Source of the DNA: Eubacteriales bacterium
GTDB lineage: Bacteria; Bacillota; Clostridia; Lachnospirales; Lachnospiraceae
Direction of reading: 5' to 3'
Length of the DNA: 57,880 bases
Assembly: GCA_030524225.1 (NCBI GenBank)
Contig: JAUNGV010000011.1
Location: 1-57,880, forward strand
Shown: positions 8,101 to 57,880 of the stretch, in pieces
Position numbering within the stretch: position 1 is the first letter of the stretch
How the letters are laid out: every line of letters begins with the position of its first letter
The notes under the pieces: generated by a model
What the model saw: only the letters and a program-made list of their open reading frames with translations
The model's database searches: none
What the model was told of the DNA's origin: nothing
Program-made: the position numbers and the translations under genes

Positions 8101-8289
8101 GATTGAACAATAAGCCCGATAGCTTATTGTTCAATCCCGATATTTGTGCCGGGGCGTCACAAATATCGATCATGAGCAAAGGCAGCCGCGAAGCGGCGAA
8201 GAGCGCGGCAGCGCGGCTTTGCGAATGGCGCGGCTGAACTGTTACCATTTGTGTCGCCCCGTCGCGCGAAAGCGATCCGGAATGGAGAT
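8101..8289 (+). repeat. Composite RBS-linked repeat, copy 1 (TPR gene)
   Basis: Plus-oriented copy with hairpin 3 at 8101-8136 (arms GATTGAACAATAAGC and GCTTATTGTTCAATC) and hairpin 2 at 8138-8168 (arms CGATATTTGTG and CACAAATATCG, loop CCGGGGCGT). Hairpin 1 is replaced by an 80-base insert (element B, 8171-8249). The copy ends with GTCGCCCCGTCGCG and the box CGATCCGGAATGGAGAT, whose TGGAGAT is the ribosome site for the ATG at 8295. Confidence 0.75.
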
Positions 8290-8294
8290 TAAAC

Positions 8295-9011
8295 ATGGAA
8301 GAAATGTTACAGGAAATAGAGCGGATGTTTCAGGAGGGCAGGCAGGACGAGGTGGAGCCTTACCTAATCCGGGCGCTGCAGAGAGCGGACGAGGAGAAGC
8401 AGTATGAGGCGTACGCCGCGATTGCGAATCAGATGGTGGGCTTTTATCAGATGACCGGCCAGTATAACAAGGCGGCGGAGGCCTCCGAGGATCTGCTGCT
8501 TCTGCTGGAGGAACTGCAGCAGGAGGACTCGGAATACTTCACGATGGTGCTCTTGAATTACGCCAACGGCTACCGGGACAACGGGCAGATGAAGGAGGCG
8601 GAGGAGAATTACCACCGCTGTGAATTGATCCTGAACCGGATTGCGGGAGGCGATCTGGCCTACGCGGCGCTGTACTCGAATCAGGGGCTGTTCTGTCTGC
8701 GGGCGGAGCGCTATCAGGAGGCGGAGGCGGCCTTCCGCATGTCCAATGAGAGATTTGCAGCCGCAGGGCAGGAGCAGGATCCGCACTTCGTGAGCAACAT
8801 TGCGGGGATCGGAGAGGCGCTGTACCGGCAGGGCGACTGCGAGGGGGCGCTGGCATCCTATGAAAAGGCGCTGGAACTCATCCGGGATAACGAAGGCGAG
8901 GGCGAGAGCTATGCGCTGCTGTGCAGGAACTGCGCGGCGATCGCGGAGAGCATGCACGATGCGGTGACGGCGCAGTCGTACCGGGACAAGGCGGAGAGAA
9001 TACTGGCATGA
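8295..9011 (+). CDS. Tetratricopeptide-repeat protein
   Basis: A 238-residue soluble protein built of about five TPR-like helix pairs, recognisable by alternating small and aromatic positions (for example YANGYRDNGQMKEAEENYHRC, then GEALYRQGDCEGALASYEKALEL). It has no signal peptide or membrane segment. TPR folds mediate protein contacts; no specific partner can be deduced. The ATG is preceded by the box of repeat copy 1. Its stop overlaps the ruvA start in ATGA, so translation is coupled and it is co-expressed with the Holliday-junction genes, though a role in recombination is only inference. Confidence 0.8.
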   Translation: MEEMLQEIERMFQEGRQDEVEPYLIRALQRADEEKQYEAYAAIANQMVGFYQMTGQYNKAAEASEDLLLLLEELQQEDSEYFTMVLLNYANGYRDNGQMKEAEENYHRCELILNRIAGGDLAYAALYSNQGLFCLRAERYQEAEAAFRMSNERFAAAGQEQDPHFVSNIAGIGEALYRQGDCEGALASYEKALELIRDNEGEGESYALLCRNCAAIAESMHDAVTAQSYRDKAERILA

Positions 9012-9643
9012 TAGCGTATGTAAAAGGAATTGTTGCGGACGTATCAGAGACGGGCGTGGTGCTCGACGTCGGAGGGATCGGATATCAGATCACGGTCTCG
9101 CCGGACACGGCGGCCAGAGTCGGCGGACGCGGGGAAGAAGCGCAGCTTTTCACCTATATGTATGTGCGGGAGGATCAGTTTGCCCTTTACGGGTTCCTCT
9201 CGCGGGACGAGCTGGAACTGTTCAAAAAGCTGATTACGGTCAGCGGAATTGGCCCCAAGGGAGGCCTCTCGATTCTGTCGGTCATCAGCGCGGACGATCT
9301 GCGCTTTGCGATACTCTCCGGAGACGCGAAGGCGATCTCCCGCGCGCCGGGCATCGGGAAAAAGACAGCGGAGCGGTTGATTCTCGACTTGCGGGACAAG
9401 CTGGAGATGCCGGTCTGGGACGGCGGGGGAGAGCAGGGGGAGAGCACTTCCTCCGGGACATCTCTCTCCGGTGCGGACGGGTTGTCCGGCGCTGCGGAGA
9501 GCGTGCTGGCAGACGCGGCAGAGGCTCTGGTGGCGCTCGGCTACGCGCGCATGGACGCGTTAAAGGCGGTGCGCAAAGCGGCGGCGGGCGGCGCGTCCGA
9601 CACAGAGGCGCTCCTGAAAGCGGCTTTGAAATATATGGTGTGA
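9008..9643 (+). CDS. ruvA: Holliday junction branch migration protein RuvA
   Basis: RuvA tetramers bind four-way DNA junctions and load the RuvB motor. The 211-residue protein begins MIAYVKGIVADV with the N-terminal OB fold, then two helix-hairpin-helix motifs (SGIGPKGGLSILS and APGIGKKTAERLILDLRDK), an acidic/serine linker around 140-160 and the C-terminal domain III that contacts RuvB. The ATG at 9008 is chosen because it starts the conserved N terminus and overlaps the upstream stop in ATGA. ruvB follows after 177 bases; ruvC is not in the window, as expected for Firmicutes, which use RecU (present at 50.5 kb). Confidence 0.96.
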   Translation: MIAYVKGIVADVSETGVVLDVGGIGYQITVSPDTAARVGGRGEEAQLFTYMYVREDQFALYGFLSRDELELFKKLITVSGIGPKGGLSILSVISADDLRFAILSGDAKAISRAPGIGKKTAERLILDLRDKLEMPVWDGGGEQGESTSSGTSLSGADGLSGAAESVLADAAEALVALGYARMDALKAVRKAAAGGASDTEALLKAALKYMV

Positions 9644-9820
9644 GATACGGCGCGGTCTATGGAGCGATCTATGGCGTGACGGAACGATTGCTCGGCTGTC
9701 CGATCAAAGCACGGGGCGGACATGGCATTCATTCGATGCGGAGAGAAAAGCGCCGAGATAGAAGTGGCGGGATAGAAGTGCCGAGATAAGAGGCGGAGCA
9801 AGGGAGAAACAGAAATCGCA

Positions 9821-10828
9821 ATGGAAAAACGGATGATCGAAACAAACTTTACCGAGGAGGACGCCCCGATTGAGGGATCTCTGCGCCCCAAAAAGCTGGA
9901 GGATTATATCGGGCAGACCAAGATCAAGGAGAATCTCTCGATTTCCATCGAGGCGGCCAGACGAAGAGGGGATCCGCTGGATCACGTCCTTTTTTACGGG
10001 CCTCCCGGACTGGGCAAAACGACGCTCTCCTGCATCATCGCCAATGAGATGGGAGTGAACGTCAAGATCACCAGCGGCCCGGCAATTGAGAAGCCGGGGG
10101 AGATGGCCGCGATTCTGAACGGTCTGCAGGAGGGGGATATTCTGTTTGTGGACGAGATTCATCGCCTGAACAAGCAGGTGGAGGAAGTTCTCTATCCGGC
10201 CATGGAGGATTTCGCGATTGATATCATGATCGGAAAAGGAGCGAGCGCCAAATCGATCCGCCTTGATCTGCCGAAGTTCACGCTCGTGGGCGCGACGACG
10301 CGGGCGGGACTCCTCTCCGCGCCGCTGCGGGATCGCTTCGGGATGATTCACCGTCTGGAATTCTATTCCATTGCGGAACTGCAGCAGATTCTGCGCCACT
10401 CCGCCAGGATTCTGGATGTGCCGATGGACGAGGAGGGCGCAGAAGAGATGGCGAGGCGCAGCAGGGGGACGCCGCGTCTTGCCAACCGGATCTTAAAGAG
10501 AGTGCGGGATTACGCGCAGGTGCGCTACGACGGCGTGATTACGAAGGAGATCGCGCGGACGGCGCTGGATCTGATGGAAGTGGACCGGATGGGACTCGAC
10601 CGGATGGACAGAGGGATTCTGCTCACCCTGATCGAGAAATTCGGCGGCGGTCCGGCAGGACTGGATACGTTGGCAGCCTCTATCGGAGAGGATGCGGGAA
10701 CGATTGAGGATGTGGTGGAGCCGTACCTGCTCCAGAACGGTCTGATCAACCGCACGCCCCGGGGACGCGTCGTCACACCGCTGGCCTATACGCATCTGGG
10801 GCTGAGCGCGCCGGAGGAGACAGACTGA
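9821..10828 (+). CDS. ruvB: Holliday junction branch migration ATPase RuvB
   Basis: The AAA+ motor of branch migration, 335 residues, normal length. Walker [10 protein letters not shown] is at about 60-68, Walker [11 protein letters not shown] at about 107-116, sensor 1 in [20 protein letters not shown] and a C-terminal winged helix ([13 protein letters not shown]). It follows ruvA after 177 bases. That gap holds no gene but contains an irregular run of GATAGAAGTG and GCCGAGATA copies (9767-9800), a decayed short repeat. Start at the ATG at 9821. Confidence 0.97.
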
Positions 10829-10917
10829 GGGGATCCATAAAGACTTCGCGTACACGGATCATCAGCCTGTCAAAATTGGTAACAGTTCAGCCTGCGCAGA
10901 AATATCTGTTCTTTTTC

Positions 10918-10947
10918 TTGCCAGTGCCGCGCAGGCCGATATATAAT
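10918..10947 (+). promoter_or_regulatory. Sigma-A promoter of zapA
   Basis: TTGCCA (10918-10923), an 18-base spacer and a perfect TATAAT (10942-10947), giving a leader of about 35 bases to the GTG start. Upstream, 10872-10917 resembles a reverse-oriented fragment of element B. Confidence 0.6.
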
Positions 10948-10988
10948 AAAAAAGTATGAAAAAACTCTAATGGATCGAGGGGAATGAC

Positions 10989-11507
10989 GTGTCAAACAAA
11001 ATTGACTGCGAAGTGGTGATTGGCGGCAAAGTGTATACGCTCAGCGGGTATGAGAGCGAGGAGTATCTGCAGAGAGTGGCGTCTTATCTGAACGGGAAGC
11101 TGGCGGATTTTTCCAAAGAGGCCGGATATACGCGTCTGCCTCTGGATCTGCAGAATATTTTGATGCAGATTAATATTGCGGACGATTATTTCAAGGCCAG
11201 AAATGAGATCGCCCTGCTCGAGGAGGATGTCGAGGCGAAGGAGAAGGATCTCTATGATCTGAAACACGAGCTGATCGCCGCGCAGATGAAGCTGGAAAAT
11301 ACGGAGAAGAATTACCGGGCGCTTCAGACGGAGAACAACGAGAACGCCAAGAAGATGATCCGTATCGAGACGGAATTAAAGAATGCGCGCGAGCCGCACT
11401 ACGACCGGAACCGGGATAGAAACAGGCAGTCCGGAAACCAGCAGCACACGCATGGGCGCGAGGGCGGAAGCGAGGCAGACAAGGGAAACACGGAGAATGA
11501 AGGGTAA
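10989..11507 (+). CDS. zapA: Cell division protein ZapA
   Basis: ZapA cross-links FtsZ protofilaments at the division ring. The 172-residue protein has the ZapA N-terminal globular domain (CEVVIGGKVYTLSGYESEEYLQRVASYLN) followed by a long coiled coil (about 70-135). The final 40 residues are a charged, disordered tail rich in Arg, Asn and His, longer than in typical ZapA. The start is GTG, placed after a GAGGGGAA ribosome site and before the conserved core. Its end overlaps the U32 peptidase start by 11 bases, so the two are coupled. Confidence 0.88.
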   Translation: MSNKIDCEVVIGGKVYTLSGYESEEYLQRVASYLNGKLADFSKEAGYTRLPLDLQNILMQINIADDYFKARNEIALLEEDVEAKEKDLYDLKHELIAAQMKLENTEKNYRALQTENNENAKKMIRIETELKNAREPHYDRNRDRNRQSGNQQHTHGREGGSEADKGNTENEG

Positions 11508-14500
11508 GAAGATCAAAAATGGCGCTGCGCGCCGTGCAGAAGCCGGAAGCGACCGGAAGCGGGAAGAGCAGAAGAGGAACGGGCGCGGGCAGAAGCCGCT
11601 TCTTGAGGAGCCGCGCGGGAAGGGACAGAGCAGAGTCCGCCGCGGGACGAATCAGAACGGCGGATACAGCGAATCCAATAAGAAGAAAGAACAGAAGACG
11701 GAATATAAGGCGGAGCATAGGACTGGGGAGTTCCGCGGGGAGGGGCGGCCGAAAGGCGGCCCTTTTGTCGTAAAGGCGACTGGCGCGGCGGCTGCGAAGA
11801 CGACCGGCGCTGTGGCTGTAAAGGCGGTTGCGGAGACGACCGACGCTGCAACTGTAAAGGCGGCTGCGGAGACAGCGAATACTTCTGTACCGCAGTGGCT
11901 GATGCCGGAGGGGAGGAGCGGAACCGGGATTCTGACGAAGCCGCTCCGGTACGAGGCGGGCCGCTTCGTGACAGAGACGGTGCGCGCGCCTGAACTTCTT
12001 GCGCCCGCAGGAAGCATGGAGTCGTTCCGCGGCGCACTGGCGGCGGGAGCGGATGCGGTGTATCTGGCAGGCAGCCGTTTCGGGGCCAGAGCGTATGCGG
12101 CGAATTTTACAGAGGAGGAAATTGTTCTGGCGCTGCGGGAGGCGCATTTATTCGGGAGAAGAGTCTATCTGACCGTCAATACGCTGACGAGGCAGGAGGA
12201 GCTGCCGGAACTCGTCTCCTTTGTGGAGTGGCTGGCCGCGCAGGGACTGGACGGAGCGATCGTGCAGGATCTGGGCGTGGTGCGCGCCCTGCACAGAGCC
12301 TGTCCGGAACTGGAACTGCACGCGAGCACCCAGATGTCCGTGACTGGCGCGGAGGCGGTGCGTTTCCTGAAAGAACAGGGCGTCTGCCGCGTTGTTCCGG
12401 CGCGTGAGATGACACTGCGGGAGCTGCGCGGAATCCGGGAGAGGGAACCCGTTGCGCTGGAGGTCTTTATCCACGGGGCAATGTGCTACTGCTATTCGGG
12501 AAAATGCCTCTTTTCCAGTCTGATAGGGGGAAGGAGCGGCAATCGCGGGCGGTGTGCGCAGCCCTGCCGCCTGCCCTATGCGGTTCTGGATGAAAACAGG
12601 AAGGAGACCGGGCCTGACGCGGGGCGCGGAGAGTGCTATCCGATCTCGATGCGGGATCTGTGCACCATAGACCGGATTCCGGAGCTGATCGAGGCGGGCA
12701 TCGACTCGTTCAAGATTGAGGGACGGATGAAGAAGCCGGAGTACGCGGCGGGGGTGACAGCGGTTTACCGCAAATACATCGACCGCTATCTGGAGCTGGC
12801 CTCCTGTGGCCGCTCGAAGGAATGGCGGATTGAGCCGGAAGATCGCCTTTTTCTGGAAAAACTGTACCTGCGCGCCCAGAGAAGCGAGGGCTATTACCAT
12901 GAGCAGAATGGGCGCGATATGGAGACGATCACGCAGCCCGGCTATCGCGGAGCCGATGAGGAGATTCTGCGGACAATCCGGGCCCGCTATCTGGACGGGC
13001 GTCCGCAGCGGAGAGTGGACGGGACAGTCTCTCTGCGCGCCGGAGAGCGGGCCTCGCTGCGGGTGAGCGTGAGCCTTGCGGATGCCGACGTAACCCACCG
13101 GAGCACGCTCAGAGAACAGGGGTCGCAGGCGGGGCAGAGGCCCGGCGTTGAGGAGGCAGCAGGGCAGAGGCTCGGCATTGTGGAGGCAGCAGGGGCGGGG
13201 CAGACGCTCAGCGTTACGGCACAGACGCAGGAGATTGTGCAGCGGGCGCAGAATCGCCCTCTGGGCGCGGAAGAGATAGAATCGCGGCTGCGTAAGAGCG
13301 GTGAGAGCAGTTTTGTGTTCGGTACACTTTCTGTGGAAACGGACGGTGACAGTTTCCTGCCGGTGGCGGCGCTGAATCGTCTGCGACGGGATGCGCTGGA
13401 GGGGTTGCAGGAGAGAATCCTCGAGGTATACGAACGCGGAAGGAAGAGGAACACGCCGCTGGAAATGACGGCTGGCACGGTTTGTGCAGCCTCTCAGGAG
13501 ACAGCGGAGCCGCGTGGCAGCGGCGCAGACAGAGGCGAAACCGACGCGGCAGCGTCTATGCGCGGCGAAAATAGCGCTGACAGTTCTGCGCACAGTATTC
13601 CCGGGGCAGAAGGCGGGGATCTCTTTGCATCGGAGAAGGGAGCATCCCGCCCGGCGCTCTGGGCGCAGGTAATCAGCCGGGCCCAGTGGGAGGCGGCGCT
13701 TGCGGAGGGCGTCACCGCCGTGATCGACGACAGCGGGGCGTTTCTCTCGGAGAGAACTTCTCCTTCCCGTTCTCTGCGCTATCTGGCGCTTCCGCATGTG
13801 CTCCGGGAGCAGAGCCGCGGGTGGATGGAAGAGGCGTACCGGGTGCTGACGGACGGGCGGTATGACGGGGCGCTGGTGCGCACGCTGGAAGAACTGGAAT
13901 TTCTGCGGGAGCGTGGGTATGCGGGAGAGCTGGTGGCGGACGCCGGGCTGTACCGCTGGAACAGAGAGAGCGAGGCGCTGCTGGCGGCGTATTGCACCGT
14001 CGGGGTGTATCCGTACGAACTAAATCGCCGGGAACTGGAGACGGTATTCGGCGCGGACAGAGACACAGGGAGCGCTGCTCCGGCCAAACGCGGCGCGCAG
14101 GACACGGAGGGACGGCCTGAACCGGACAGCCGCGGTGCGCAGAACACGGAGGGACGGCCTGAACCGGTTAGCCGCACCGCGCTGCCCGGGATTCTGACCG
14201 TATACGGCAGGCTGCCGATGATGATTACCGCGAACTGCGTGCGGAAGACGGAGAATGCCTGCACGGGAGAGCGGGGAGGGGCCGGAGACGGCTTCTGGTA
14301 TCTGCGCGACCGAAAAGGGGAGGAACAGCCGGTGCGCCACCACTGCCGGTTCTGTTATAATGTGGTATATAACAGTGTGCCGCTTTCCCTCCATTTGTGC
14401 GCGGAGGACAGAATTTTCCGGGAATCCGCCGCAGTCCTGTGCTGCTTTACCACGGAGAACGCAGAGGAGAGCGGAGAGATTCTGCGCGCCTACCAGGCGC

Positions 14501-14577: not shown

Positions 14578-14591
14578 GGAGGCGCTGTGAT

Positions 14592-17702: not shown

Positions 17703-17740
17703 GCGACTGAGCGGTTGCATGGCTGTGGAACAGAGTGTGG

Positions 17741-18432: not shown

Positions 18433-19734
18433 TTGACGATTGTATTGCTGATAGTAAAAATCATAGGGGGGATCCTTCTGGCTTTGCTCATCCTTGCGCT
18501 GGCAGCTGTGCTGCTCGTGCTCTTCGTCCCGATCCGTTATCGTCTGAGCGGGGCGACGAACGATCCGGAAAGACGGGAGGAGTTCGCATTTGATTCTCTG
18601 CCCCAAACGGTGACGGCTCAGGGGCATGTCTCGTGGCTTCTTCATCTGGTCAACGGCCATATTTCCTATCCGGAGGACCCGGAGTTCACACTCCGGATTC
18701 TGTGCTTTCCGATTTTCCGGACCCGTCTCTTTGAGGAAGACGATTCTGCGCAGGACAGGGAGGATGCAGACCAGACGAAAGAAACGGTACAGAGTGGAAA
18801 TAATGTCGGGCAGAGGGGGGAAGCGTCGCGGAGTGGGAAGAATGCCGGACAGACTAAGGAGACAGAGAGAAGCGGGAAGCGGGAGGAACCATCGGACGGG
18901 AAAAATGAAGAGTCGGCCGGAGGAGGCGCTGTGACAGAGCAAAGCGCGCGGACAGAGAGAGGCTTAAGGGAAACAAAAACGGAAACGTTCGGAACCTCCG
19001 GGGAAACAGGGCGTTCCTCACAGAGCCAGGCACAGAAGAGTCCAAAGTACCAGATACAGGAGAAAACACAGCCGAATCAGGAATATTCAGGCGGAGCAAG
19101 ACAATCGCCAGATCCGGGACACTCAAGCGGAGCAGGACAAATGCAGGCTCCGAAACACTCAGGCAGAGCAGGGCAATCGCCGGACCCGGAACGCTCGGGC
19201 GGAACGGGGCAATCGCCGGATCCGGAGCGCTCGGGCAGGGCGGGACAACCGTCAAATCCGAAGAGCTCTGGCAAAGCGGGACAGTCAACGAATCGGGCGC
19301 GGCGTTTTGAGAGGAAACTGCGGTACACTTTGCGTAGCTTTTGTGTTAAGATGAAAAAGATCTGTTCCGACGCGTCGTACTACCGGCGCGTGCTGGAGAG
19401 TGAGACATTTGCGAGAGCGTTCCAAAAAGGAAAGAGACAGACACAGAAAGTGATCCGGCAGCTGTTTCCCAGAGACTGGAATCTTTCAGGAACCGTGGGA
19501 TTCGGAGATCCTGCCGCAGCGGGCAAATTCATGGAGATACAGGGACTTCTCTATCCGTGGACGGCGGGACACCTGTTCGTGGAGCCGGATTTTGACTTCT
19601 GTGTTCTCGATCTGTCCGGATGGGCGAGAGGAAGGATCACGATTTTTGTGCTGCTGAAGGCGGCGTTGATTTTTTATTTTGACGGGGATATCAGGAAAGT
19701 GCTGCGGCGGATCAGGCGGCGCGGCACTCGATAA
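18433..19734 (+). CDS. DUF2953-type membrane-anchored protein
   Basis: A 433-residue protein with one strong N-terminal membrane helix (residues 3-32), then a beta-rich segment (PIRYRLSG...AQGHVSWLLHLVNGHISY) and a C-terminal part (VGFGDPAAAGKFMEIQGLLYPW...LFVEPDFDFCVLDLSGWARGRI) typical of DUF2953 proteins, often found beside gerW/ytfJ in spore formers. The middle 190 residues are low-complexity, rich in Glu, Gly and Ser, and hold a 12-residue tandem repeat. The start is TTG behind AAGGAGG. gerW follows after 119 bases, which supports a link to sporulation; the molecular role is unknown. Confidence 0.72.
   Translation: MTIVLLIVKIIGGILLALLILALAAVLLVLFVPIRYRLSGATNDPERREEFAFDSLPQTVTAQGHVSWLLHLVNGHISYPEDPEFTLRILCFPIFRTRLFEEDDSAQDREDADQTKETVQSGNNVGQRGEASRSGKNAGQTKETERSGKREEPSDGKNEESAGGGAVTEQSARTERGLRETKTETFGTSGETGRSSQSQAQKSPKYQIQEKTQPNQEYSGGARQSPDPGHSSGAGQMQAPKHSGRAGQSPDPERSGGTGQSPDPERSGRAGQPSNPKSSGKAGQSTNRARRFERKLRYTLRSFCVKMKKICSDASYYRRVLESETFARAFQKGKRQTQKVIRQLFPRDWNLSGTVGFGDPAAAGKFMEIQGLLYPWTAGHLFVEPDFDFCVLDLSGWARGRITIFVLLKAALIFYFDGDIRKVLRRIRRRGTR
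19087..19282 (+). repeat. 36-bp in-frame tandem repeat (12 residues)
   Basis: About 5.5 units of 36 bases (19087, 19123, 19159, 19195, 19231, 19267) encode variants of SGRAGQSPDPER. They sit in the disordered linker of the DUF2953-type protein. Confidence 0.88.
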
Positions 19735-23308: not shown

Positions 23309-23376
23309 TAATCTCCATTCCAGAGCGTTCCTTGCATCTGCCATGTATTGTGATTTGCGACGCTCCGGCACAAATC
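23309..23376 (-). repeat. Composite RBS-linked repeat, copy 2 (permease)
   Basis: Minus-oriented and shortened: the box at 23310-23329 (sense AACGCTCTGGAATGGAGAT) supplies the permease ribosome site. Hairpin 2 lies at 23352-23376 (arms GATTTG and CAAATC, sense loop CCGGAGCGT). Hairpins 1 and 3 are missing. Confidence 0.65.
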
Positions 23377-24687: not shown

Positions 24688-24692
24688 GTTTT

Positions 24693-24845
24693 CTTCCATT
24701 CCGGAGCGTTCCTCGTGACGGGGCGACGCGAATCTCCAATTCGCGTCTGTCATAATTGAGATTTGTGACGCTCCGGCACAAATCTCGGGATTGAAAAATA
24801 AGCTATCGAGCTTATTTTTCAATCTTCTATTGCCTCCGTTCCAGA
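24693..24845 (-). repeat. Composite RBS-linked repeat, copy 3 (gntR), complete
   Basis: Minus-oriented full copy. Box 24693-24710 (sense AACGCTCCGGAATGGAAG). Hairpin 1 at 24725-24747 (arms GACGCGAAT and ATTCGCGTC). Hairpin 2 at 24758-24786 (arms GAGATTTGTG and CACAAATCTC, sense loop CCGGAGCGT). Hairpin 3 at 24789-24824 (arms GATTGAAAAATAAGCT and AGCTTATTTTTCAATC). A second box-like sequence (sense TTCTGGAACGGAGG) lies on the far side near 24832-24845. Confidence 0.85.
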
Positions 24846-27106: not shown

Positions 27107-27688
27107 CTATTTCCGTTTCTGTCTGTCCCGATAGAGCTCCGGAAACGCTGCCTTGCAGCGGCGGATCAGCCTGCGCAGCGGGGCAAAGAGGCAGAGGCAG
27201 AGTACGAAATTGCCGCCGAAATGCAGCAGATCGTAGGGAATGCCGGAGACCCAGGTGGTAAAGAAGAGAGAAGGGCCTCCGATCGGCAGATAGACGAGAG
27301 CGCAGAGCGCACCGAAGCACAGGCCGAAGCTCCCGGAGAGGATCGCCCAGAACAGGGGCGAGTTCTGGCGGCGGAAGAGGCGTGCGAGAATTGCGAGCAC
27401 CGGCCAGCTGTAGAGATACATGATCACCCAGAGTCCCATACCATAGACGCCGCATTCCACGAGGACGAAGACGGGGAGGATGCAGAAAATCAGCGCGGGG
27501 AATTCCAGCGCATAGAGAATGACGAGCAGGGAAACCAGCTCGATATTGGGCAGGAAGGAGAGAGCGAGTTTGGCCGCCTCCATCACCGCGACAAGTATGC
27601 CGCCGAGAACGATGTTTCCGGCGGCATATCTGATGGAAAAATGAGAGTCGGAAGAATTTTTCCGGGAAAACGGAGGACGTCTATTCAT
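27107..27688 (-). CDS. ECF-type transporter S component, putative
   Basis: A 193-residue integral membrane protein with about six helices and the soft, Gly- and aromatic-rich look of energy-coupling-factor S components (AAGNIVLGGILVAVMEAAKLALSFLPNIELVSLL; SGSFGLCFGALCALVYLPIGG). It is the last gene behind metF, the MetH activator, metH and a DUF4430 protein, and DUF4430 proteins commonly accompany such S components. I infer a role in cobalamin or related corrinoid uptake; the energising module is not in the window. The ATG is preceded by the box of repeat copy 4. Confidence 0.68.
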   Translation of the reverse strand: MNRRPPFSRKNSSDSHFSIRYAAGNIVLGGILVAVMEAAKLALSFLPNIELVSLLVILYALEFPALIFCILPVFVLVECGVYGMGLWVIMYLYSWPVLAILARLFRRQNSPLFWAILSGSFGLCFGALCALVYLPIGGPSLFFTTWVSGIPYDLLHFGGNFVLCLCLFAPLRRLIRRCKAAFPELYRDRQKRK

Positions 27689-35937: not shown

Positions 35938-35979
35938 AAAACGGACGTTGAGAGAAAACGCCGTCTTTTCAAACGCGGG

Positions 35980-36030
35980 GACGTCGGAGGAATGCGTGCT
36001 GCGAAAGGCAGAGTGCATTCCTCCGACGTC
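35980..36030. repeat. Perfect 16-bp inverted repeat
   Basis: GACGTCGGAGGAATGC (35980-35995) and GCATTCCTCCGACGTC (36015-36030) with a 19-base loop that itself can form CTGC/GCAG. It lies between the FakA-like gene and the convergent hicB. There is no T tract on either strand, so it is not an ordinary terminator. The region 36031-36080 holds nothing else. Confidence 0.8.
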
Positions 36031-36080
36031 AGGGCAGAGGAAAAGGCGGCGGTTTTATTCTTTGGTTTTATATTTCTGCT

Positions 36081-39374: not shown

Positions 39375-39392
39375 ACGCTCCGGAATGGAGAT
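39375..39392 (+). repeat. RBS-linked repeat box, copy 6 (degV)
   Basis: ACGCTCCGGAATGGAGAT directly before the degV start. Upstream (39331-39357) is a weak hairpin (CGGAAG with CTTCCG). The conserved hairpins 1-3 are not recognisable. Confidence 0.7.
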
Positions 39393-39397
39393 GAATG

Positions 39398-42272: not shown

Positions 42273-42299
42273 GGAGCGGTCTGCCGCTCCGGAATGGAG
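42273..42299 (+). repeat. RBS-linked repeat box, copy 7 (topoisomerase A)
   Basis: GGAGCGG (42273-42279) pairs with CCGCTCC (42284-42290) around TCTG, continuing into GGAATGGAGAT. The box doubles as hairpin arm and ribosome site for the GTG start at 42306. Confidence 0.65.
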
Positions 42300-42305
42300 A
42301 TATTT

Positions 42306-45237: not shown

Positions 45238-45270
45238 CCAATCGGCAGGCAGCAAAGGAGTGGAGCGCCT

Positions 45271-45325
45271 GACGCAAATTTGATATTTGCGTCGCCCCGT
45301 CGCGAGGGGCGCTCCGGAATGGGGA
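45271..45325 (+). repeat. Composite RBS-linked repeat, copy 8 (coaD)
   Basis: Plus-oriented. Hairpin 1 at 45271-45293 (arms GACGCAAAT and ATTTGCGTC, loop TTGAT), then GCCCCGTCGCG and the box GCGCTCCGGAATGGGGA, whose GGGG serves as ribosome site for the ATG at 45331. Hairpins 2 and 3 are absent. An AAAGGAGTGG lies upstream of hairpin 1, perhaps the original ribosome site. Confidence 0.75.
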
Positions 45326-45330
45326 ATGAT

Positions 45331-46566: not shown

Positions 46567-46573
46567 TAAACGG

Positions 46574-46721: not shown

Positions 46722-47384
46722 ATGAGGATTGACACATCGGCGGTGCGGGCACTGCTGTTTGATCTGGACGGGACGCTGGTGGATTCCATGTGGGTCTGGG
46801 GCGCGATCGATATCGAGTATCTGGCGCGATTCGGTCTGACGGCTCCGGAGGATCTGCAGGAGGAGATCGGCGGCTGTAGCTTTCAGGAGACGGCGGTTTA
46901 TTTCAAGGAGAGATTCCATATCCCGGATTCTCTGGAGAAAATCTGTGCGGACTGGACGCAGATGGCATGGGACAAATACACGCGGGAAGTCCCCCTGAAA
47001 TCCGGCGTGCGCGAACTTCTTGCGTGGTGCAGAGAAAACGGAATTCCCTGCGCGATCGCCACGAGCAACTTCCGGGAGCTGACGGAACAGGTGCTGCTCT
47101 CGCACGGAATTGAGGACTGCTTTGCCGCGGTGGTGACGGGCAAAGAGGTGGCGAAGGGCAAGCCGATGCCGGACATCTATCTGGAGGCGGCGCGCCGCGT
47201 CGGCGTTTCCGCCGGGCAGTGCCTCGTCTTTGAAGATATTATTTCCGGAATTCAGGCCGGTAAGGCGGCAGGGATGAAGGTCTGCGCCGTCCGGGACGGG
47301 GACGATCCGCAGCGCGAGAAAGAGAAACGGGCGCTGGCGGATTTCTATCTCAGCGACTATAGGGAAATTGAAAATATCAGGTAA
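46722..47384 (+). CDS. HAD-superfamily phosphatase, beta-phosphoglucomutase-like
   Basis: A 220-residue haloacid dehalogenase-type hydrolase of the subfamily IA group. Motif I is LLFDLDGTLVDS (nucleophile Asp and the acid/base Asp two later), motif II is in AIATSN, the Lys is in KGKPMPDIYLEA and motif IV is LVFEDIISGI. A helical cap of type C1 lies between motifs I and II. It probably dephosphorylates a small sugar phosphate; the substrate is not clear. It is monocistronic between a terminator and element B. Confidence 0.88.
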   Translation: MRIDTSAVRALLFDLDGTLVDSMWVWGAIDIEYLARFGLTAPEDLQEEIGGCSFQETAVYFKERFHIPDSLEKICADWTQMAWDKYTREVPLKSGVRELLAWCRENGIPCAIATSNFRELTEQVLLSHGIEDCFAAVVTGKEVAKGKPMPDIYLEAARRVGVSAGQCLVFEDIISGIQAGKAAGMKVCAVRDGDDPQREKEKRALADFYLSDYREIENIR

Positions 47385-47393
47385 CGCCCGATT

Positions 47394-47476
47394 ATGAGCA
47401 AAGGCAGCCGCGAAGCGGCGGAGAGCGCGGCAGCGCGACTTTACGAATGGCGCGGGCTGAACTGTCACAAGTAAGA
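47394..47476 (+). repeat. Element B, full copy 2
   Basis: About 80 bases nearly identical to 8171-8249 (inside repeat copy 1). It contains a GCCGC-GAA-GCGGC hairpin and ends CTGAACTGTYAC. Here it stands alone, without the box. Reverse-oriented partial copies are near 28363-28404 and 10872-10935. Confidence 0.75.
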
Positions 47477-51059: not shown

Positions 51060-51067
51060 GATAAGCA

Positions 51068-51096
51068 TTGACAGAGATAGTGTTTGCATATATACT
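51068..51096 (+). promoter_or_regulatory. Promoter of the his operon
   Basis: Consensus TTGACA (51068-51073), 17 bases, TATACT (51091-51096), 111 bases before hisZ. The leader shows no T-box features (no GGTGG-type anticodon-proximal motif seen) and no clear attenuator. Confidence 0.75.
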
Positions 51097-51207
51097 TCAA
51101 AAGGATTTAGTACGTTACCATGATAAAGTGATGGCTGCCGGGAAGCCGGAGCAGAGGAGCTGGTTACTGAAGATCCCAAAGCAAAGAAACGGAGCAGGAA
51201 CGATTGT

Positions 51208-52356: not shown

Positions 52357-52476
52357 CTGGTATATGGACTACGCACAGCGAGGGATGCTTTCTGAACGAG
52401 GTGCAGGAGGAGGAAACTTAGCTGTTCGTTTGGCGCGTCGTCTGTCGTGTGAAAACATTCCGAAATGGAGATTATT

Positions 52477-53118
52477 ATGCGTTATTTGACATTTGCCCTG
52501 ACGAAGGGGCGTCTCGCCAGCAAAACGTTGGCGCTTCTGGAGCAGGTCGGTATTTCCTGCGAGGAAATGAAGGATAAGGATACGAGAAAGCTGATTTTCA
52601 CGAATGAGGAACTGGGGCTGCGCTTCTTCCTCGCCAAGGGACCGGACGTCCCGACGTATGTGGAATACGGCGCGGCGGATATCGGGGTCGTCGGTTCAGA
52701 CACGATCCGCGAGGAGAACAGACGGGTGTATGAGGTGCTGGATCTGGGCTTTGGGAAATGCCGGATGTGTGTCTGCGGTCCTGAGGAGGCACAGACGCTG
52801 CTGCAGCATCACGAGAGAATCCGCGTGGCGACGAAATATCCGAATATCGCGCGGGAATATTTTTATAATAAAAAGAATCAGACGGTGGACATCATCAAGC
52901 TGAACGGCTCTGTCGAACTGGGACCGATCGTGAAGCTCTCCGATGTGATCGTTGACATTGTGGAGACGGGATCGACATTGCGGGAGAACGGTCTGACGGT
53001 TCTCGAGGAGATCTGTCCGCTCTCCGCACGCATGATCGTCAATCAGGTCAGTATGCAGATGGAGACGGAGAGAATCAAGGATCTGATCGCCAGACTCCGC
53101 AAAGTGGTGGAGGTCTGA
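52477..53118 (+). CDS. hisG: ATP phosphoribosyltransferase, short form
   Basis: First step of histidine synthesis: joins ATP and PRPP. The 213-residue protein is the short HisG that needs HisZ. The N terminus (YLTFALTKGRLASKTLALLEQVGI), the phosphate-binding DIVETGSTLRENGL and FLAKGPDVPTYVEYGAADIGVVG fit. I choose the ATG at 52477; an ATG 12 bases earlier is within a degenerate repeat box (CCGAAATGGAGAT) that supplies the ribosome site. The product should be feedback-inhibited by histidine through HisZ. Confidence 0.96.
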   Translation: MRYLTFALTKGRLASKTLALLEQVGISCEEMKDKDTRKLIFTNEELGLRFFLAKGPDVPTYVEYGAADIGVVGSDTIREENRRVYEVLDLGFGKCRMCVCGPEEAQTLLQHHERIRVATKYPNIAREYFYNKKNQTVDIIKLNGSVELGPIVKLSDVIVDIVETGSTLRENGLTVLEEICPLSARMIVNQVSMQMETERIKDLIARLRKVVEV

Positions 53119-53163
53119 ATAGGATCGCAGTGCCACAGCAAAGCTGTGGCAAGAAAGGAAATT

Positions 53164-54453
53164 ATGCGTATTTTAGAGTTGACGAAAGAAGAACAGGATA
53201 AGGTGCTCGACGCGCTTCTGCAGCGCAGTCCTGCCAATTATACGGAGCAGGAGGCGGCGGTGCGGGAGATCATTGCGAGTGTCCGCGCCGGAGGCGATGA
53301 GGCGCTGTTTGCGTATGAGGAGCGGTTCGATCACTGCGCACTGACGAAGGAGACGGTTCGCGTCACGAGACAGGAGATCGAGGAGGCGTACCGGGCGCTG
53401 GATCCGGAGCTGGTCGAGGTGATGCGCCGGGCGGCCGCCAATATCCGCGCTTTCCATGAAAAGCAGAAAACGAACAGCTGGATCACGACGACCGAGGAGG
53501 GGACGATTCTCGGTCAGAAGGTGACGCCGATCGCGATTTCCGGCTGCTATGTGCCGGGCGGCCGGGCGGTCTATCCCTCCAGCGTTCTGATGAACGTGAT
53601 TCCGGCGAAGGTGGCGGGTGTGCCGCGGATCATTGTTTGCACGCCGCCGAACGCGGAGGGAAAGTGCCCGACGGGAACGCTGGTGGCGGCGGACATCGCG
53701 GGCGTGGACGAGGTCTATAAGGCGGGCGGCGCGCAGGCCATCGCGGCGATGGCGTTCGGGACGGAGTCGGTTCCGCGGGTCGATAAGATCACCGGCCCCG
53801 GCAATATCTACGTTGCGCTCGCCAAGAAGGCGTGTTTTGGTTACACGGGGATCGATTCCGTGGCTGGGCCGAGCGAGATTCTCGTCATTGCGGACGAGAC
53901 CGCGAACCCGCGCTATATTGCGGCGGATCTTCTCTCTCAGGCGGAGCATGATCCGCTGGCGAGCGCGATTCTGCTGACGACGAGCCGTTCCTTTGCGGAG
54001 GCGGTCTCTGCGGAGATCGACGGATTCCTGCAGACCCTCTCCCGCGCGGAGATCATCCGGCAGTCGTTGGAGAATTACGGCTATATTTTCGTTGGAGAGA
54101 CGATGGAGGAGTTGACCGAGGCGGCGAACGCAATTGCTTCGGAACATATGGAGATTGTGACGGCGAATCCGTTCGAGGTGATGACGAAGATCCGCAACGC
54201 GGGCGCGATTTTCCTCGGCCCCTACTCTTCGGAGCCCCTCGGCGATTACTACGCGGGACCGAATCACATCCTGCCGACGAACGGCACGGCGCGTTTCTTC
54301 TCGCCGCTGAGCGTCGATGATTTCGTGAAAAAGAGCAGCATCATTTCCTACTCGAGAGAAGCACTGGAAAAGGTGCATGAGGATATTGAGAAATTCGCGC
54401 AGAGCGAGGGACTGACCGCGCACGCGAATTCGGTGCATGTGAGATTTGAGTAA
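53164..54453 (+). CDS. hisD: Histidinol dehydrogenase
   Basis: Oxidises histidinol to histidine, using two NAD+ and zinc. The 429-residue protein shows AISGCYVPGGRAVYPSSVLMNVIPAKVAGV (NAD and fold), KITGPGNIYVALAKK, GIDSVAGPSEILVIAD and the zinc ligands in LSQAEHDPLASAIL. The end LPTNGTARFFSPLSVDDFVKKSS is characteristic. The ATG at 53164 is preceded by AAAGGA; one 18 bases earlier has no site. It lies 45 bases behind hisG. Confidence 0.97.
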   Translation: MRILELTKEEQDKVLDALLQRSPANYTEQEAAVREIIASVRAGGDEALFAYEERFDHCALTKETVRVTRQEIEEAYRALDPELVEVMRRAAANIRAFHEKQKTNSWITTTEEGTILGQKVTPIAISGCYVPGGRAVYPSSVLMNVIPAKVAGVPRIIVCTPPNAEGKCPTGTLVAADIAGVDEVYKAGGAQAIAAMAFGTESVPRVDKITGPGNIYVALAKKACFGYTGIDSVAGPSEILVIADETANPRYIAADLLSQAEHDPLASAILLTTSRSFAEAVSAEIDGFLQTLSRAEIIRQSLENYGYIFVGETMEELTEAANAIASEHMEIVTANPFEVMTKIRNAGAIFLGPYSSEPLGDYYAGPNHILPTNGTARFFSPLSVDDFVKKSSIISYSREALEKVHEDIEKFAQSEGLTAHANSVHVRFE

Positions 54454-54590
54454 GCCGCTCTGTGCGGTGGGCGCATAGAAAGAGTAGGTACTTGCCCTGC
54501 GGAGGCGGAGCGGCTTCCGGCTCTGGATGGTGTGTGCCTGCGGAAGTTTACCGGATATATTTTACGGGATATATTAGGAGGAGATTGGCT

Positions 54591-55184
54591 ATGTCCAGAA
54601 TGGCGGAGATCAAACGGGAGACGGGAGAGACAAGGATCGCCCTCTCCCTTTCCCTCGACGGAAGCGGGAAGGCGCAGCTTTCGACGGGAATCGGATTTTT
54701 TGATCATATGATGGATGCGTTTGCCAGACACGGCCTGTTCGATGTGACGCTCTCCGTGCAGGGCGATCTGGAAGTGGACGGCCACCACAGCGTCGAGGAT
54801 ACGGGGATCGTGCTGGGAGAGGCGATCCGGCAGGCGATCGGGGATAAGAAGGGGATCCGGCGTTACGGATACTTTATCCTGCCGATGGACGAGGCTCTGG
54901 TGCTCTGCGCCGTGGACCTCTGCGGGAGACCGTATTTCGTGATGGACGGGGAAGAGAAGATCGCCGCACCGATGGTCGGCGGGTTTGACACCGAGCTGGT
55001 GAGGGAGTTCTTTTACTCCGTCTCCTATGCGGCGGGCATGAATCTGCATTTTAAGATTCTATCCGGCGCAAACAGCCATCACATCATCGAGGCCATGTTC
55101 AAGGCTTTTGCCAAGGCACTCGACATGGCGACAGGATATGACACCAGAATAGAGGACGTGCTGAGCACGAAAGGATGTTTATGA
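54591..55184 (+). CDS. hisB: Imidazoleglycerol-phosphate dehydratase
   Basis: Dehydrates imidazoleglycerol phosphate. The 197-residue monofunctional enzyme carries the manganese-binding HH motifs: [11 protein letters not shown] near 61-71 and [12 protein letters not shown] near 163, plus [17 protein letters not shown]. There is no histidinol-phosphatase fusion. The ATG at 54591 has AGGAGG. The stop overlaps the next gene start by four bases, so translation is coupled. The 137-base gap to hisD holds no gene. Confidence 0.96.
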
Positions 55185-56488
55185 GAGAACAATTCAAGAA
55201 ATTCATTCCGTGTATCTATTTAAAAGAGGGAAAAGCGGTCAAAGGACTGCAGGATCCGACGATTGTTTCCCTTGATCCCGTGGCGCTGGCAGGCAGCTAC
55301 AACAACGGCAATGCGGACGGACTGCTGATCTTCGATCAGTCCAATACGGATGCGGAGCATGAAGAGGCGCTCGATTTGATCAAGGAGATCTGCGGACAGG
55401 TCAAGATTCCCGTGATCGGCGCGGGCAATGTCAAACGCATGGAGGATGTCAAGAAGCTCCTCTACGCGGGGTGTCAGATGGCGGCGCTCAACTACTCCAA
55501 ACCGGAGAATGTCGCGATCACGAAGGAGGTCTCCGAGAAATTCGGTAAGGACAGAATCGCGGCCTGCTACCGCGCGGCGGATGCGGTGACAGAGCATAAA
55601 GAGCTGATTGCGGCGTATGTGGAGAAGATGATCCTGATCGATGAGACAGCGATCAAGGAAGCGCTGGCGATTAAGGATATTCCGACGATTATCTCCCTGC
55701 CGGAGGTCTCGCTGGACAAGATTCTGGACTTTTTCACCTATGAGAATATTGACGGAATCACGGGAAACGCCGTGAATGAGAACATCGGAGAGCTGCGCAA
55801 TATCAAGGTGCTCTGCCGGGAAAACGGAATTACAGTCAATCTTCATGAGGCAAAGCTGGCGTGGAGCGATTTCAAACTCAACAGCGACGGGCAGCTGCCG
55901 GTCGTCGTGCAGGAGGCGGATACCGACGAGGTTCTGATGGTCGCCTACATGAACGAGGAGGCGTATAACCTGACTGTAGCGACGGGGCGGATGACTTACT
56001 TCTCCCGCAGCCGCCAGAGTCTCTGGATCAAGGGAGAGACGAGCGGCCACTTCCAGTATGTGAAGTCCCTGACAGCGGACTGCGACAGGGATACGCTGCT
56101 GGCGAAGGTCGATCAGATCGGTCCCGCCTGCCATACGGGGAGTCATTCCTGCTTTTTCAATGAGGTGGCCGTCTACGGCGCGCCCGAGAACAACCCGCAG
56201 AAGGTGCTCGAACAGGTCTATGGTACGATTCTCGACCGGCGCGAGCACCCGAAGGAGGGCTCCTATACGAACTATCTCTTTGAAAAGGGAATTGACAAGA
56301 TGCTCAAGAAGCTCGGCGAGGAGTCCACGGAGATCGTGATCGCGGCCAAAAATCCGAACGCGAACGAGATCAAGTACGAGATGGCCGACTACCTCTATCA
56401 CATGATGGTCGTGATGGCGGAGAAGGGCGTCACATGGCGGGACATTACCGAGGAACTGGCGAGACGGGAGAGGCCCAAAGAGGGATAA
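55181..56488 (+). CDS. hisIE: HisIE with an N-terminal HisF-like pseudo-domain
   Basis: A 435-residue chain of three parts. Residues 1-215 form a HisA/HisF-type barrel ([15 protein letters not shown] at the start; [22 protein letters not shown]). The two catalytic aspartates of HisF are replaced: the first sits in CIYLKEG (Tyr for Asp), the second in AACYRAAD (Tyr for Asp). Residues 220-340 are HisI, phosphoribosyl-AMP cyclohydrolase, with [15 protein letters not shown] and [11 protein letters not shown] zinc/metal sites. Residues 345-435 are HisE, phosphoribosyl-ATP pyrophosphatase ([25 protein letters not shown]). HisI and HisE look active; the barrel does not. The ATG at 55181 overlaps hisB in ATGA. 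Confidence 0.92.
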
Positions 56489-56490
56489 GA

Positions 56491-56536
56491 GCAGGGAGGG
56501 ATAAAAAGCGGGAGCGGGCGTTTTATCCCTCCCTGC
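56491..56536. terminator. Convergent-gene hairpin after the his operon
   Basis: A perfect 16-bp inverted repeat GCAGGGAGGGATAAAA (56491-56506) and TTTTATCCCTCCCTGC (56521-56536), directly between two converging stop codons. It probably ends transcription from both sides, though neither side has a long T tract. Confidence 0.65.
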
Positions 56537-56538
56537 GC

Positions 56539-57378
56539 TCATGTCCCGGTAAAATCAATGCGGACGATCTTCATCTTCATCAGATTGTCTCCGACGCGGG
56601 ACAGAATCCGGTGCATCTTTTTGACAGACGGCAGATCCAGGCTCTGGTAGCCCAGCATATAGCCCCTACAGGATACGCGGAAGGTTTCTGACCACACAGC
56701 GAGATCCTTTTGTGTGTCCCCGACGGAAAAATAGGCGTCCACATCCTGGATGCCCGCCTGTTTGAGCCACGTTTTCCGCATCATTTTGGCGCCTGCTTTT
56801 CCGCAGGAGTCAAAGACAAGCCTTCCCCCCGGAAACCGTTTCTCCAGTGCGAGAAACAGAGTTTTCACGTCTTCTGTCAGGAAATAATAAAACACGCCTG
56901 CGGCGAAAAAGACAACGCCCTGACTGGAATCAATTTCCTGAAACCACGCGGGATCCCGCAAATCGGAAGCAATATTCTTCTCTCGTTCTCCGGCGGGCAG
57001 CAGCTGATTTCTGATCTCTATCACATCAGGAAAATCGATATTGTAAATACGGCAGGAGCCGTTGTCGCAGTTTCTCCCCGTATTGTCCAGTCCGCAGCCC
57101 ATGTTCACAACGGCTGCGCGTGGATGGCTCTTTAAGTAATCTTTGATTTCAAAGGTCAGATCATTCTGTCGCATGGCGACTTCCAGAAAGCCGAATTCCT
57201 GCATGGAGCTGCCGCTCTTCTTTTCCAATTCCGAAAAATCATAATCAATTTCATCCATGAAGTGCAGGGCGAATTCATCCTGAAAGAGATCCGGAAATTT
57301 CTCCGTGCATTTTTTCCGGGCATACAGAGGGATAATCAGCGTTTCCTGCACTGTGTTTTTTTCAATATGATATTTCAT
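56539..57378 (-). CDS. LCM/TcmP-type SAM-dependent O-methyltransferase
   Basis: A 279-residue methyltransferase of the leucine carboxyl methyltransferase/TcmP-like family: VVNMGCGLDNTGRNCD (SAM loop), the acidic strand IYNIDFPDVIEIRNQLLPAGER and SDLRDPAWFQEID, then FFAAGVFYYFLTEDVKTLF. Relatives methylate carboxyl or hydroxyl groups of small molecules; the target is not known. I chose the ATG at 57378, behind the GGAGG box of repeat copy 9, not an in-frame ATG 45 bases earlier. A promoter candidate lies 280 bases upstream, before the repeats. Confidence 0.87.
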   Translation of the reverse strand: MKYHIEKNTVQETLIIPLYARKKCTEKFPDLFQDEFALHFMDEIDYDFSELEKKSGSSMQEFGFLEVAMRQNDLTFEIKDYLKSHPRAAVVNMGCGLDNTGRNCDNGSCRIYNIDFPDVIEIRNQLLPAGEREKNIASDLRDPAWFQEIDSSQGVVFFAAGVFYYFLTEDVKTLFLALEKRFPGGRLVFDSCGKAGAKMMRKTWLKQAGIQDVDAYFSVGDTQKDLAVWSETFRVSCRGYMLGYQSLDLPSVKKMHRILSRVGDNLMKMKIVRIDFTGT

Positions 57379-57383
57379 AAGAA

Positions 57384-57535
57384 CCTCCATTCCGGAGCGC
57401 ACTGCGCGACGGGGGCGACGCAAATATCAGATTTGCGTCTGCCATTTTCGAGATTTGTGACGCTCCGACACAAATCTCGGTGTGAAAAATAAGCTATCGA
57501 GCTTATTTTTCACACTAACCTCCATTCCGGAGCGC
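57384..57535 (-). repeat. Composite RBS-linked repeat, copy 9, complete with two boxes
   Basis: Minus-oriented. Proximal box 57384-57400 (sense GCGCTCCGGAATGGAGG) gives the methyltransferase ribosome site. Hairpin 1 at 57417-57439 (arms GACGCAAAT and ATTTGCGTC). Hairpin 2 at 57449-57479 (arms CGAGATTTGTG and CACAAATCTCG, sense loop TCGGAGCGT). Hairpin 3 at 57480-57515 (arms GTGTGAAAAATAAGCT and AGCTTATTTTTCACAC). An exact second copy of the box stands on the far side at 57519-57535. Confidence 0.88.
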
Positions 57536-57655
57536 TCTGCGCGACAGATTTGCGGTGGCCGTCACAGTAGTCTCCTGTTCAGTCTGTCCTGACATAAAGC
57601 AGCAGGCAGAGCGTTAATTTCTGCAGTATGACAGCGGTTAGCTATTGCTAATTCA

Positions 57656-57683
57656 ATGATAGCATAACAGGATAGAATTTCAA
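57656..57683 (-). promoter_or_regulatory. Candidate promoter of the methyltransferase
   Basis: On minus, TTGAAA (57678-57683), 16 bases, TATCAT (57656-57661). The transcript would include repeat copy 9 in its leader. Between 57684 and 57810 I see no gene; an imperfect GCGGGAG/CTCCCGC pair spans 57738-57770. Confidence 0.4.
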
Positions 57684-57810
57684 CGTTTAAATCACGCAAA
57701 AGCATTTCGGAAAAGCCTCTTGTCAGAGAAAACGCGGGAGACTGTAATCTGCTTGCAATTGCTCCCGCTTCATCCTACAATTTTGTGGGAACAGTTCGCT
57801 GTATAAGACG

Positions 57811-57880
57811 CTCTGAAACATGGAGATAGTGTGAAAAATAAGCTTGATAGCTTATTTTTCACACCGAGATTTGTGCTGGA
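57811..57880 (+). repeat. Composite RBS-linked repeat, copy 10, cut by window end
   Basis: Plus-oriented: far-side box-like CGCTCTGAAACATGGAGAT, hairpin 3 at 57829-57864 (same arms as copy 9, loop TGAT), then the first arm of hairpin 2 (CGAGATTTGTG, 57865-57875), where the window ends. It predicts a plus-strand gene just beyond. Confidence 0.75.

Follow-up and report, generated by a model that had tools for sequence, protein, structure and literature searches.

A folded repeat between the Shine-Dalgarno sequence and the start codon of many genes in a Lachnospiraceae genome, probably a small mobile element

Repeat copies in the window

The 57,880-nucleotide (nt) stretch of DNA analysed here (contig JAUNGV010000011.1 of a Lachnospiraceae genome; hereafter the window) carries a conserved box, with the consensus CGCTCCGGAATGGAGAT, shortly before the start codons of a series of genes, and this box forms the 3' end of a longer folded repeat. 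Twelve matches at up to three mismatches were found in the window, compared to a mean of 0.42 and a maximum of 2 in shuffled versions (0 of 100 shuffles reached 12). Eleven of these sites had been listed in a first-pass annotation and all were borne out, each reading in the sense of the gene with the box ending 2-10 nt 5' of the start codon; the twelfth (57518-57534), absent from that list, is the upstream partner in a tandem pair. A Pfam run covering ten of the eleven genes downstream of boxes matched nine, as TPR, ABC-2 permease, GntR, MetH domains, HicB-like, DegV, gyrase/topoisomerase IV subunit A, cytidylyltransferase-like (coaD) and HisG, and gave no match for the gene at 27107-27688. 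These nine distinct assignments agree with the earlier view that the box-bearing genes are mutually unrelated; the methyltransferase label of the last gene is carried over unchecked from the earlier reading. At the site named for topoisomerase A the box stood but the product is corrected to the A subunit of gyrase/topoisomerase IV, and at the degV site the box likewise stood, with an open reading frame (ORF) that can open at 39395 or 39398.

The unit is ~133 nt long (about 131-142 nt in its standard form) and contains four hairpins, P1 to P4. A full copy runs in the order native Shine-Dalgarno (SD) sequence, P1, P2 (loop CCGGAGCG), P3, 5' strand of P4 (CCGTCGCG), box and start codon. The head of the unit resembles a start codon, usually TAGTGTGAAAAAT or AGATTGAAAAAT, and the 3' end is GGAATGGAG(G). 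Bit scores of the window copies, listed below, are those of R1, a covariance model of P1-P4, without the pseudoknot, made from the 42-copy alignment described in the next section.

8100..8289, + strand: copy before the TPR gene (start 8295), with P1 at 8101-8136, P2 at about 8143-8163 and the box at 8273-8289; 86.6 bits
23311..23409, - strand: short copy before the ABC-2 permease gene, with P2 at about 23354-23374 and the box at 23311-23327; 26.2 bits, E 0.0065
24692..24825, - strand: full copy before gntR, with P1, P2, P3, P4 and box, and CGGAGG on the left; 132.2 bits
27692..27800, - strand: copy before the gene at 27107-27688, with P3 (27725-27747), P4 strand and box, and left flank ATGGAGAT; 66.9 bits
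31082..31210, - strand: copy before metH, with P2, a diverged P3 and box, and ATG 10 nt downstream; 59.7 bits
36493..36509, - strand: box-only copy of the hicB-like gene, shortly 3' of AAAAGGAGA; box match, no R1 match
39376..39392, + strand: degV box, exact consensus, with weak upstream similarity; 22.7 bits, E 0.036
42285..42301, + strand: box-only copy, exact consensus, of the gyrase/topoisomerase IV A gene, with an in-box ATG at 42294; no R1 match
45259..45326, + strand: copy before coaD, with P3 (45271-45293), P4 strand and box, and left flank AAAGGAGTGGAG; 48.1 bits
52456..52472, + strand: hisG box, degenerate (3 mismatches), with a GTCGTG P4-like strand upstream; no R1 match
57383..57516, - strand: full copy before the last gene, with P1 (57480-57515), P2, P3 (57417-57439), P4 strand and box (57383-57399); 147.6 bits
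57518..57534, - strand: upstream box of the tandem pair, whose GGAGGTTA abuts P1 of the next copy; box match
57828..57880, + strand: P1 and partial P2 of a further copy ended by the contig edge; 50.7 bits, cut at the 3' side

The window copies are graded from box alone to P1, P2, P3 and box, as expected from the annotation's statement that some copies carry upstream hairpins. Beyond the window, some units are tandem or truncated, and others have lost their middle so that the head adjoins the box. The term first applied to the family, 'mosaic', is apt where it refers to lost modules, internal deletions and tandem copies. As had also been noted, an ATG inside the box opens the listed ORF at 42294, 36500 and 52465.

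A conserved fold with two competing pairings

The first alignment comprised 42 copies from the source genome, genomes G014 and G043 and named records, in 147 columns. In this alignment 94.7% of the cells of P1-P3 and a pseudoknot pair, and cells changed on both sides numbered 160, compared to 50.7 after shuffling (0 of 500 shuffles reached this value). Among 76 distinct rows of an alignment that was fitted to P1-P4 and included weak matches, P1-P4 showed 405 such cells compared to 100.5. A covarying structure 5' of the start codon, as is typical of riboswitches, is therefore present.

Covariation between the P2 loop and the 5' half of the box, seen in several sequence types, implies a pseudoknot. 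It varies little in the 42-copy alignment, with both-side changes in two of eight pairs. Other genomes contain further box types, each with a matching P2 loop: CGCTTCGG/CCGAAGCG, CGCTCAGA/TCTGAGCG, GTCTGCGG and GCCTGCGG/CCGCAGGC, and, in genome G306, GCTCGTC/GACGAGC. The pairing was evaluated in the 35 distinct loop/box combinations left after length filters from 84 aligned rows, in an alignment (A3) fitted to P1-P4 and not to loop/box pairing. Boxes formed a mean longest run of 6.77 contiguous pairs with their own loop, compared to 5.14 in 5000 shuffles (maximum 5.91). For the 23 boxes other than CGCTCC the mean was 6.78 with their own loop, compared to 5.48 with the loops of CGCTCC elements and 4.68 (maximum 6.0) when re-paired among themselves. 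Thus, the pseudoknot of the fold is well supported.

P4 also covaries, with both-side changes in six of six pairs of the alignment fitted to it. P4 and the pseudoknot share one strand, the 5' half of the box, and are mutually exclusive. Two exclusive pairings of one strand that both covary, allowing for the fitting to P4, are a classical sign of a switch, and the distance to the SD sequence and start codon is fixed. These features raise the alternative that the element is a cis-acting RNA switch tuning translation of many genes as one large regulon, in which the 5' half of the box would pair, beside the SD sequence, with either the P4 5' strand or the P2 loop, and a signal common to the genes, be it a ligand, protein, temperature or small RNA, would shift the balance; we return to it with the comparison of genomes. 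A universal mechanism of SD sequestration through CTCC-GGAAT-GGAG was considered and rejected: judged from the sequences, it fits the commonest box type and fails in the GCCTGCGG and GTCTGCGG types and in G306.

Several copies depart from the simple form. A recurrent P3 variant with a longer insert in place of a simple hairpin was seen in the source genome (G000), for example in the units before boxes L046 17186, L060 1629 and L080 (minus strand) 1234. A 67-nt repeat (8167-8233) fills the expected place of P3 in the TPR-gene copy and is 94% identical to 47389-47455, a second repeat directly after an ORF ending at 47384 that represents either a second repeat family or a P3 variant. In L276 (genome G382), two head-to-tail tandem units of differing pseudoknot types (CGCTCAGA and GCCTGCGG) lie in one leader at 4698-4982.

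Position between two Shine-Dalgarno sequences

R1 was used to scan the window and 40 stretches holding or adjoining box matches, together 792 kb or 27% of the assembly; given this choice of stretches, the analysis measures position and not density. We considered the best 64 of 94 matches at E up to 1, and counted a start codon as qualifying if it lay 0-12 nt downstream and opened an ORF of at least 60 amino acids or one running off the stretch. A qualifying start codon followed 56 of the 64 matches (at 3-5 nt in 52), compared to 3278 of 20000 random positions (16%) and to 5 of 64 when read antisense out of the 5' end. In other genomes the figures were 57 of 68 and, antisense, 1 of 68; these 68 matches were drawn from 84 by leaving out seven same-place repeats, two from the source genome and seven weak ones, and some of them, from G014 and G043, lie in stretches that were retrieved because of their box matches. 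In both sets the start codon was mostly at 4 nt. The distance and orientation of hits, which the first-pass annotation had proposed to measure, are thus strongly biased towards start codons in the 27% of the genome covered.

The left side of the unit showed a complementary pattern. Of 115 copies, 101 have an SD-like 4-mer in the 14 nt that precede the unit, compared to 20-26 in each of five windows farther upstream. The element accordingly has the native SD sequence on its left and brings a new one, at normal spacing from the start codon, on its right. The two flanks resemble each other: 34 of 116 copies shared 4-mers between left and right flank, compared to 17.6 after re-pairing (maximum 30; 8 of 124 rows dropped by the head filter), and 37 of 119 did so compared to 19.9 (maximum 33; 5 of 124 dropped) when re-paired within genome group and head type. 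Shared 5- and 6-mers were also in excess (p 0.001-0.004), and 2-mers showed none.

The head carries NTG and an A-rich second codon in 110 of 119 copies, and in 72 of these an SD-like word precedes the NTG by 4-6 nt. This arrangement, together with the 15 copies in which the leader's stop overlaps the start codon of the gene, would fit a translated leader, in which the native SD sequence drives a short ORF from the head NTG and the SD sequence of the box re-initiates the gene by coupling. Yet the peptide shows no conservation, its frame changes with the length variants of P1 and P3, and the stems conserve pairing and not codons; early stops in the other frames are moreover partly due to the head sequence itself. 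We therefore regard a translated leader as very unlikely. Coding of a peptide by the unit was rejected on similar grounds, as the open frame that spans much of the unit (median 45 codons) is displaced by length variants.

Copy number and distribution

The source assembly, that of a gut bacterium (2.9 Mb, 127 contigs, 81% complete), contained 250 box matches, compared to one for the pattern read backwards. At two or fewer mismatches there were 173 in this genome, 0-6 in 35 of 36 genomes of the same genus and 23 in the remaining one, G014. Other gut bacteria, too, carry related repeats. Among 392 genomes of the order, matches were found in 29, the source genome included, 24 of them in the family of the window and five in another (f8); scoring was limited to eight candidates per genome, and chance may account for the weakest matches (E 1e-4 to 1e-3). 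In 398 genomes sampled from the phylum, only the source genome matched.

The pattern GTCGCG-N2-6-CGCTCCGGAATGGAG occurred in at least 107 stretches of a named collection (GTDB species). Among the 80 matches listed, 78 had Bacillota-type titles, including Lachnospiraceae, Acetatifactor, Roseburia, Eisenbergiella and Lachnospira, one was titled only 'bacterium', and one was a Pseudomonadales record (L168) without the element. The start codon lay exactly 6 nt after GGAG in 55 of these 80 and at 3-10 nt in 66.

Presence and absence at orthologous sites

Two sister species, G310 and G383, were compared over matched pieces of 75-94% identity. At 3 of 3 sites tried, one species had an SD sequence followed by the start codon and the other had SD sequence, element, SD sequence and start codon. 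In the first pair, with collinear coding flanks, G310 reads GTGAGGAGATGCCCATGG and G383 reads GTGAGGAGAT-element-GGGGATTATTATGG. The second has the element in G310 and none in G383, and a direct repeat of ~27 nt around the element includes a private box variant. In the third, G310 reads CAGGAGGCAAACAAAATGG and G383 reads AAGGAGGACAACA-element-GGAGGATACAATGG. The comparison of orthologous loci proposed in the first-pass annotation thus yielded sites with and without the element. Elsewhere, searches for such sites were unproductive: genus-wide comparison gave no clean empty sites, congeners being mostly 65-78% alike, G043 and G113 shared too little sequence at the place tried, and an all-against-all comparison of named loci gave nothing clean. 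In L286, L345 and L350, a private box variant was common to the left box and the box at the unit's other end, as though duplication or conversion of the target box had taken place.

G113, a genome from another family of the order, has 28 further places of at least 124 nt with 90-98% identity to one copy, although several of these places are contig ends and the two pieces of one copy may count twice. Eighteen copies were aligned, from the query region and 17 of 20 fetched stretches (three lacked a copy by the criteria used). Identity begins near TAGTGTG, which in most copies lies 0-5 bases past a native word resembling GGAGG, and it stops at GGAATGGAGG, with the ATG 5-8 nt further on.

These comparisons bear on two alternatives. 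The first equates the box with the ordinary ribosome-site consensus of the species, an outcome that the annotation had named as one that would undo its reading. The box does hold GGAG at a normal SD distance, but its matches are few in congeners, it is tied to covarying hairpins, and it is missing from orthologous genes of a sister species; this explanation can practically be dismissed. The second is the regulon controlled by an RNA switch. Against the competing pairings and fixed distance that suggest it stand the window targets, which are unrelated housekeeping and accessory genes, the 173 box matches here compared to 0-6 in 35 of 36 congeners at equal stringency, the many copies that keep the box without P1, P2 or P3, and the sister-species orthologues lacking the element, and we judge it quite improbable.

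The annotation had offered either a common regulator or a spreading element. Because orthologous sites exist with and without the element and near-identical copies are dispersed in another species, we favor the spreading element; the data require no common regulator but would allow one. We conclude that the repeats probably constitute a family of small mobile repeats that are non-coding and non-autonomous, share a conserved single-strand fold, and enter between the SD sequence and the start codon and re-supply the SD sequence.

Mobilization and possible carriers

A mobile repeat of this kind could belong to a known single-strand system. In this more specific form of the mobile-repeat explanation, the element would be an IS200/IS605-like repeat, or one like the repetitive extragenic palindromic (REP) sequences with their REP-associated tyrosine transposases (RAYT), moved by a single-strand transposase that cuts 3' of a target word of the GGAG type; the target sequence alone would then dictate orientation and position. 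Hairpins near both ends without terminal inverted repeats, the fixed orientation and the GGAG-like word on the left agree with this form. In contrast, the source genome shows no Y1 transposase, the GGAG word lies at variable distances from the unit head, and few copies lie away from start codons, where GGAG words (uncounted) should be common. On balance, this form appears unlikely.

The search for a mobilizer was confined to Y1 transposase (PF01797) and reverse transcriptase (PF00078) in the 81%-complete source genome, with other families and other carriers not searched; neither was found there, and 5 of 14 and 3 of 14 control genomes, respectively, were positive. An autonomous copy with an internal ORF was considered and rejected: partial copies in nine G113 stretches and one G043 stretch look truncated, internally deleted or tandem, judged by position only with ORFs unannotated.

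A plasmid search for the element found none, and two patterns had no exact match in IMG/VR. Three unannotated human-faecal scaffolds titled 'Bacteriophage sp.' matched most of the unit at 72-78%, with a fourth partial match; these scaffolds are possible bacterial contamination.

MT838414.1, 1700-1845: element in a 'Bacteriophage sp.' scaffold
MT837007.1, 6690-6833: element in a 'Bacteriophage sp.' scaffold
MT836788.1, 1973-2112: element in a 'Bacteriophage sp.' scaffold

Comparison with known elements

At the gathering cut-off, Rfam gave no family in the window and five stretches. Laxer Rfam scans of 5 and 8 loci gave sub-threshold matches (28.6-36.5 bits, compared to 48.7) of TD-2 RNA (RF03162, clan CL00124), an RNA of Treponema origin, to P1/P2 of some copies on the opposite strand. 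TD-2 differs in strand, in having three hairpins and a short loop at the place of the pseudoknot loop, and in its printed consensus, which has no SD end. The antisense match occurs in L228, L243 and L265, and TD-2 might be distantly related to the element but recorded on the opposite strand.

The translational riboswitches preQ1 and SAM-II have a pseudoknot next to the SD sequence, and the element resembles them in being a pseudoknot leader that ends at the SD sequence and has mutually exclusive pairings. It differs in its many copies, unrelated genes, SD sequence outside the pseudoknot, and presence or absence at orthologues. A coherent set of target genes across species, expected of a riboswitch, was not found: ten window genes are unrelated, and orthologues without the element occur at three sites.

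The terminal inverted repeats that define miniature inverted-repeat transposable elements (MITEs) were not detected, the best end-to-end match averaging 3.8 of 14 compared to 4.5 for shuffled ends in 119 copies. As for target-site duplication, the short words shared by the flanks are above chance but of no fixed length, and the three orthologous sites differ in their junctions.

Among small, dispersed, folded, non-autonomous repeats, the BOX, RUP and SPRITE repeats of Streptococcus pneumoniae are comparable. According to PMC3049150, BOX repeats are modular (boxA, boxB, boxC) and variable between strains, and BOX and RUP have terminal inverted repeats and target duplications, with insertions within genes and regulatory regions. 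Compared to that description, the present element lacks inverted repeats at its ends, usually occupies the SD-to-start site, supplies an SD sequence and has a covarying pseudoknot. REP sequences and bacterial interspersed mosaic elements (BIMEs) with RAYT share its abundance (over 100 copies per genome), hairpins and extragenic location. REPs are palindromes of 20-40 bp; they are headed by GT(A/G)G, frequently alternate in orientation and are linked to a Y1 transposase (PMC2817692). Set beside these, the element has a ~133-nt unit and one orientation to the gene, and no Y1 gene was found in the source genome. A literature search among open-licence PubMed Central papers found no repeat with such SD-to-start target specificity. 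Because traits that define MITEs, REP/RAYT and riboswitches were looked for and not found, the element appears categorically new; classing it as a small interspersed repeat of a highly unusual kind would be just as open to a specialist.

Two further repeats were seen in the window. The 3' end of the hicB-like gene is adjoined by a long imperfect inverted repeat (35955-36055) with 48-nt arms 5 nt apart, and five tandem 36-nt units with 67-72% identity to the first lie in an open frame at 19071-19250.

How the element may spread

The unit appears built as a start-codon-like head followed, at its other end, by an SD sequence, and insertion would then leave an SD-to-start arrangement on both sides. 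With this arrangement kept, the host gene should still be translated and the element could be tolerated many times. The conserved fold may be what a mobilizer acting in trans recognizes, in single-stranded DNA (ssDNA) or RNA. Insertion is probably aimed at the gap between SD sequence and start codon rather than merely filtered there by selection, since insertions 5' of the native SD sequence should also be tolerated but look rare. Taken further, the family may represent a new class of mobile element that has a functional target, the SD-to-start gap, and travels in single-stranded form, as RNA or ssDNA folded with a P2-loop pseudoknot, running from a start-codon mimic to an SD sequence; we put this forward tentatively, at somewhat less than an even chance.

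Several observations weigh against insertion of a mobile, folded unit into this gap. Eight of the 64 matches in the source genome lacked a qualifying start codon (the unit was cut by a contig end in one, was tandem in one, lacked a box in two and had a decayed box in one; two preceded very short ORFs, and one preceded no ORF), as did 11 of the 68 in other genomes (two tandem, one cut by a contig end). No SD-like word was found on the left of 14 of 115 copies, and the spacing from this word to the head varies, mostly lying 4-6 nt before NTG. Some loop/box pairs mismatch, for example in L240 and in L277 at 2256-2388. A fold that exposes the SD sequence is not supported, as in pseudoknot-free folding of the first 90 copies the SD sequence was less open than in shuffled units (accessibility 0.287 compared to 0.358). 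That neither mobilizer family was found in the 81%-complete source genome counts on the same side. At the orthologous sites, the 4-nt spacer GCCC of the empty site in the first pair is TATT in the filled site, so the splice is not clean; the filled site of the second pair also contains an older box; and sequence 5' of the SD sequence differs between species in the third. A further site has the element in both G310 and G383 (L239, L241), and gain versus loss is not polarized at the three sites.

If the mobile-repeat explanation is correct, a selfish or co-opted repeat colonizes the translation-initiation site at many genes of one genome without breaking them. The element also has practical consequences, as an in-box ATG can misplace called gene starts and contig ends of G113 fall inside element copies. 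Finally, the element may serve as a ready-made ribosome-binding cassette.

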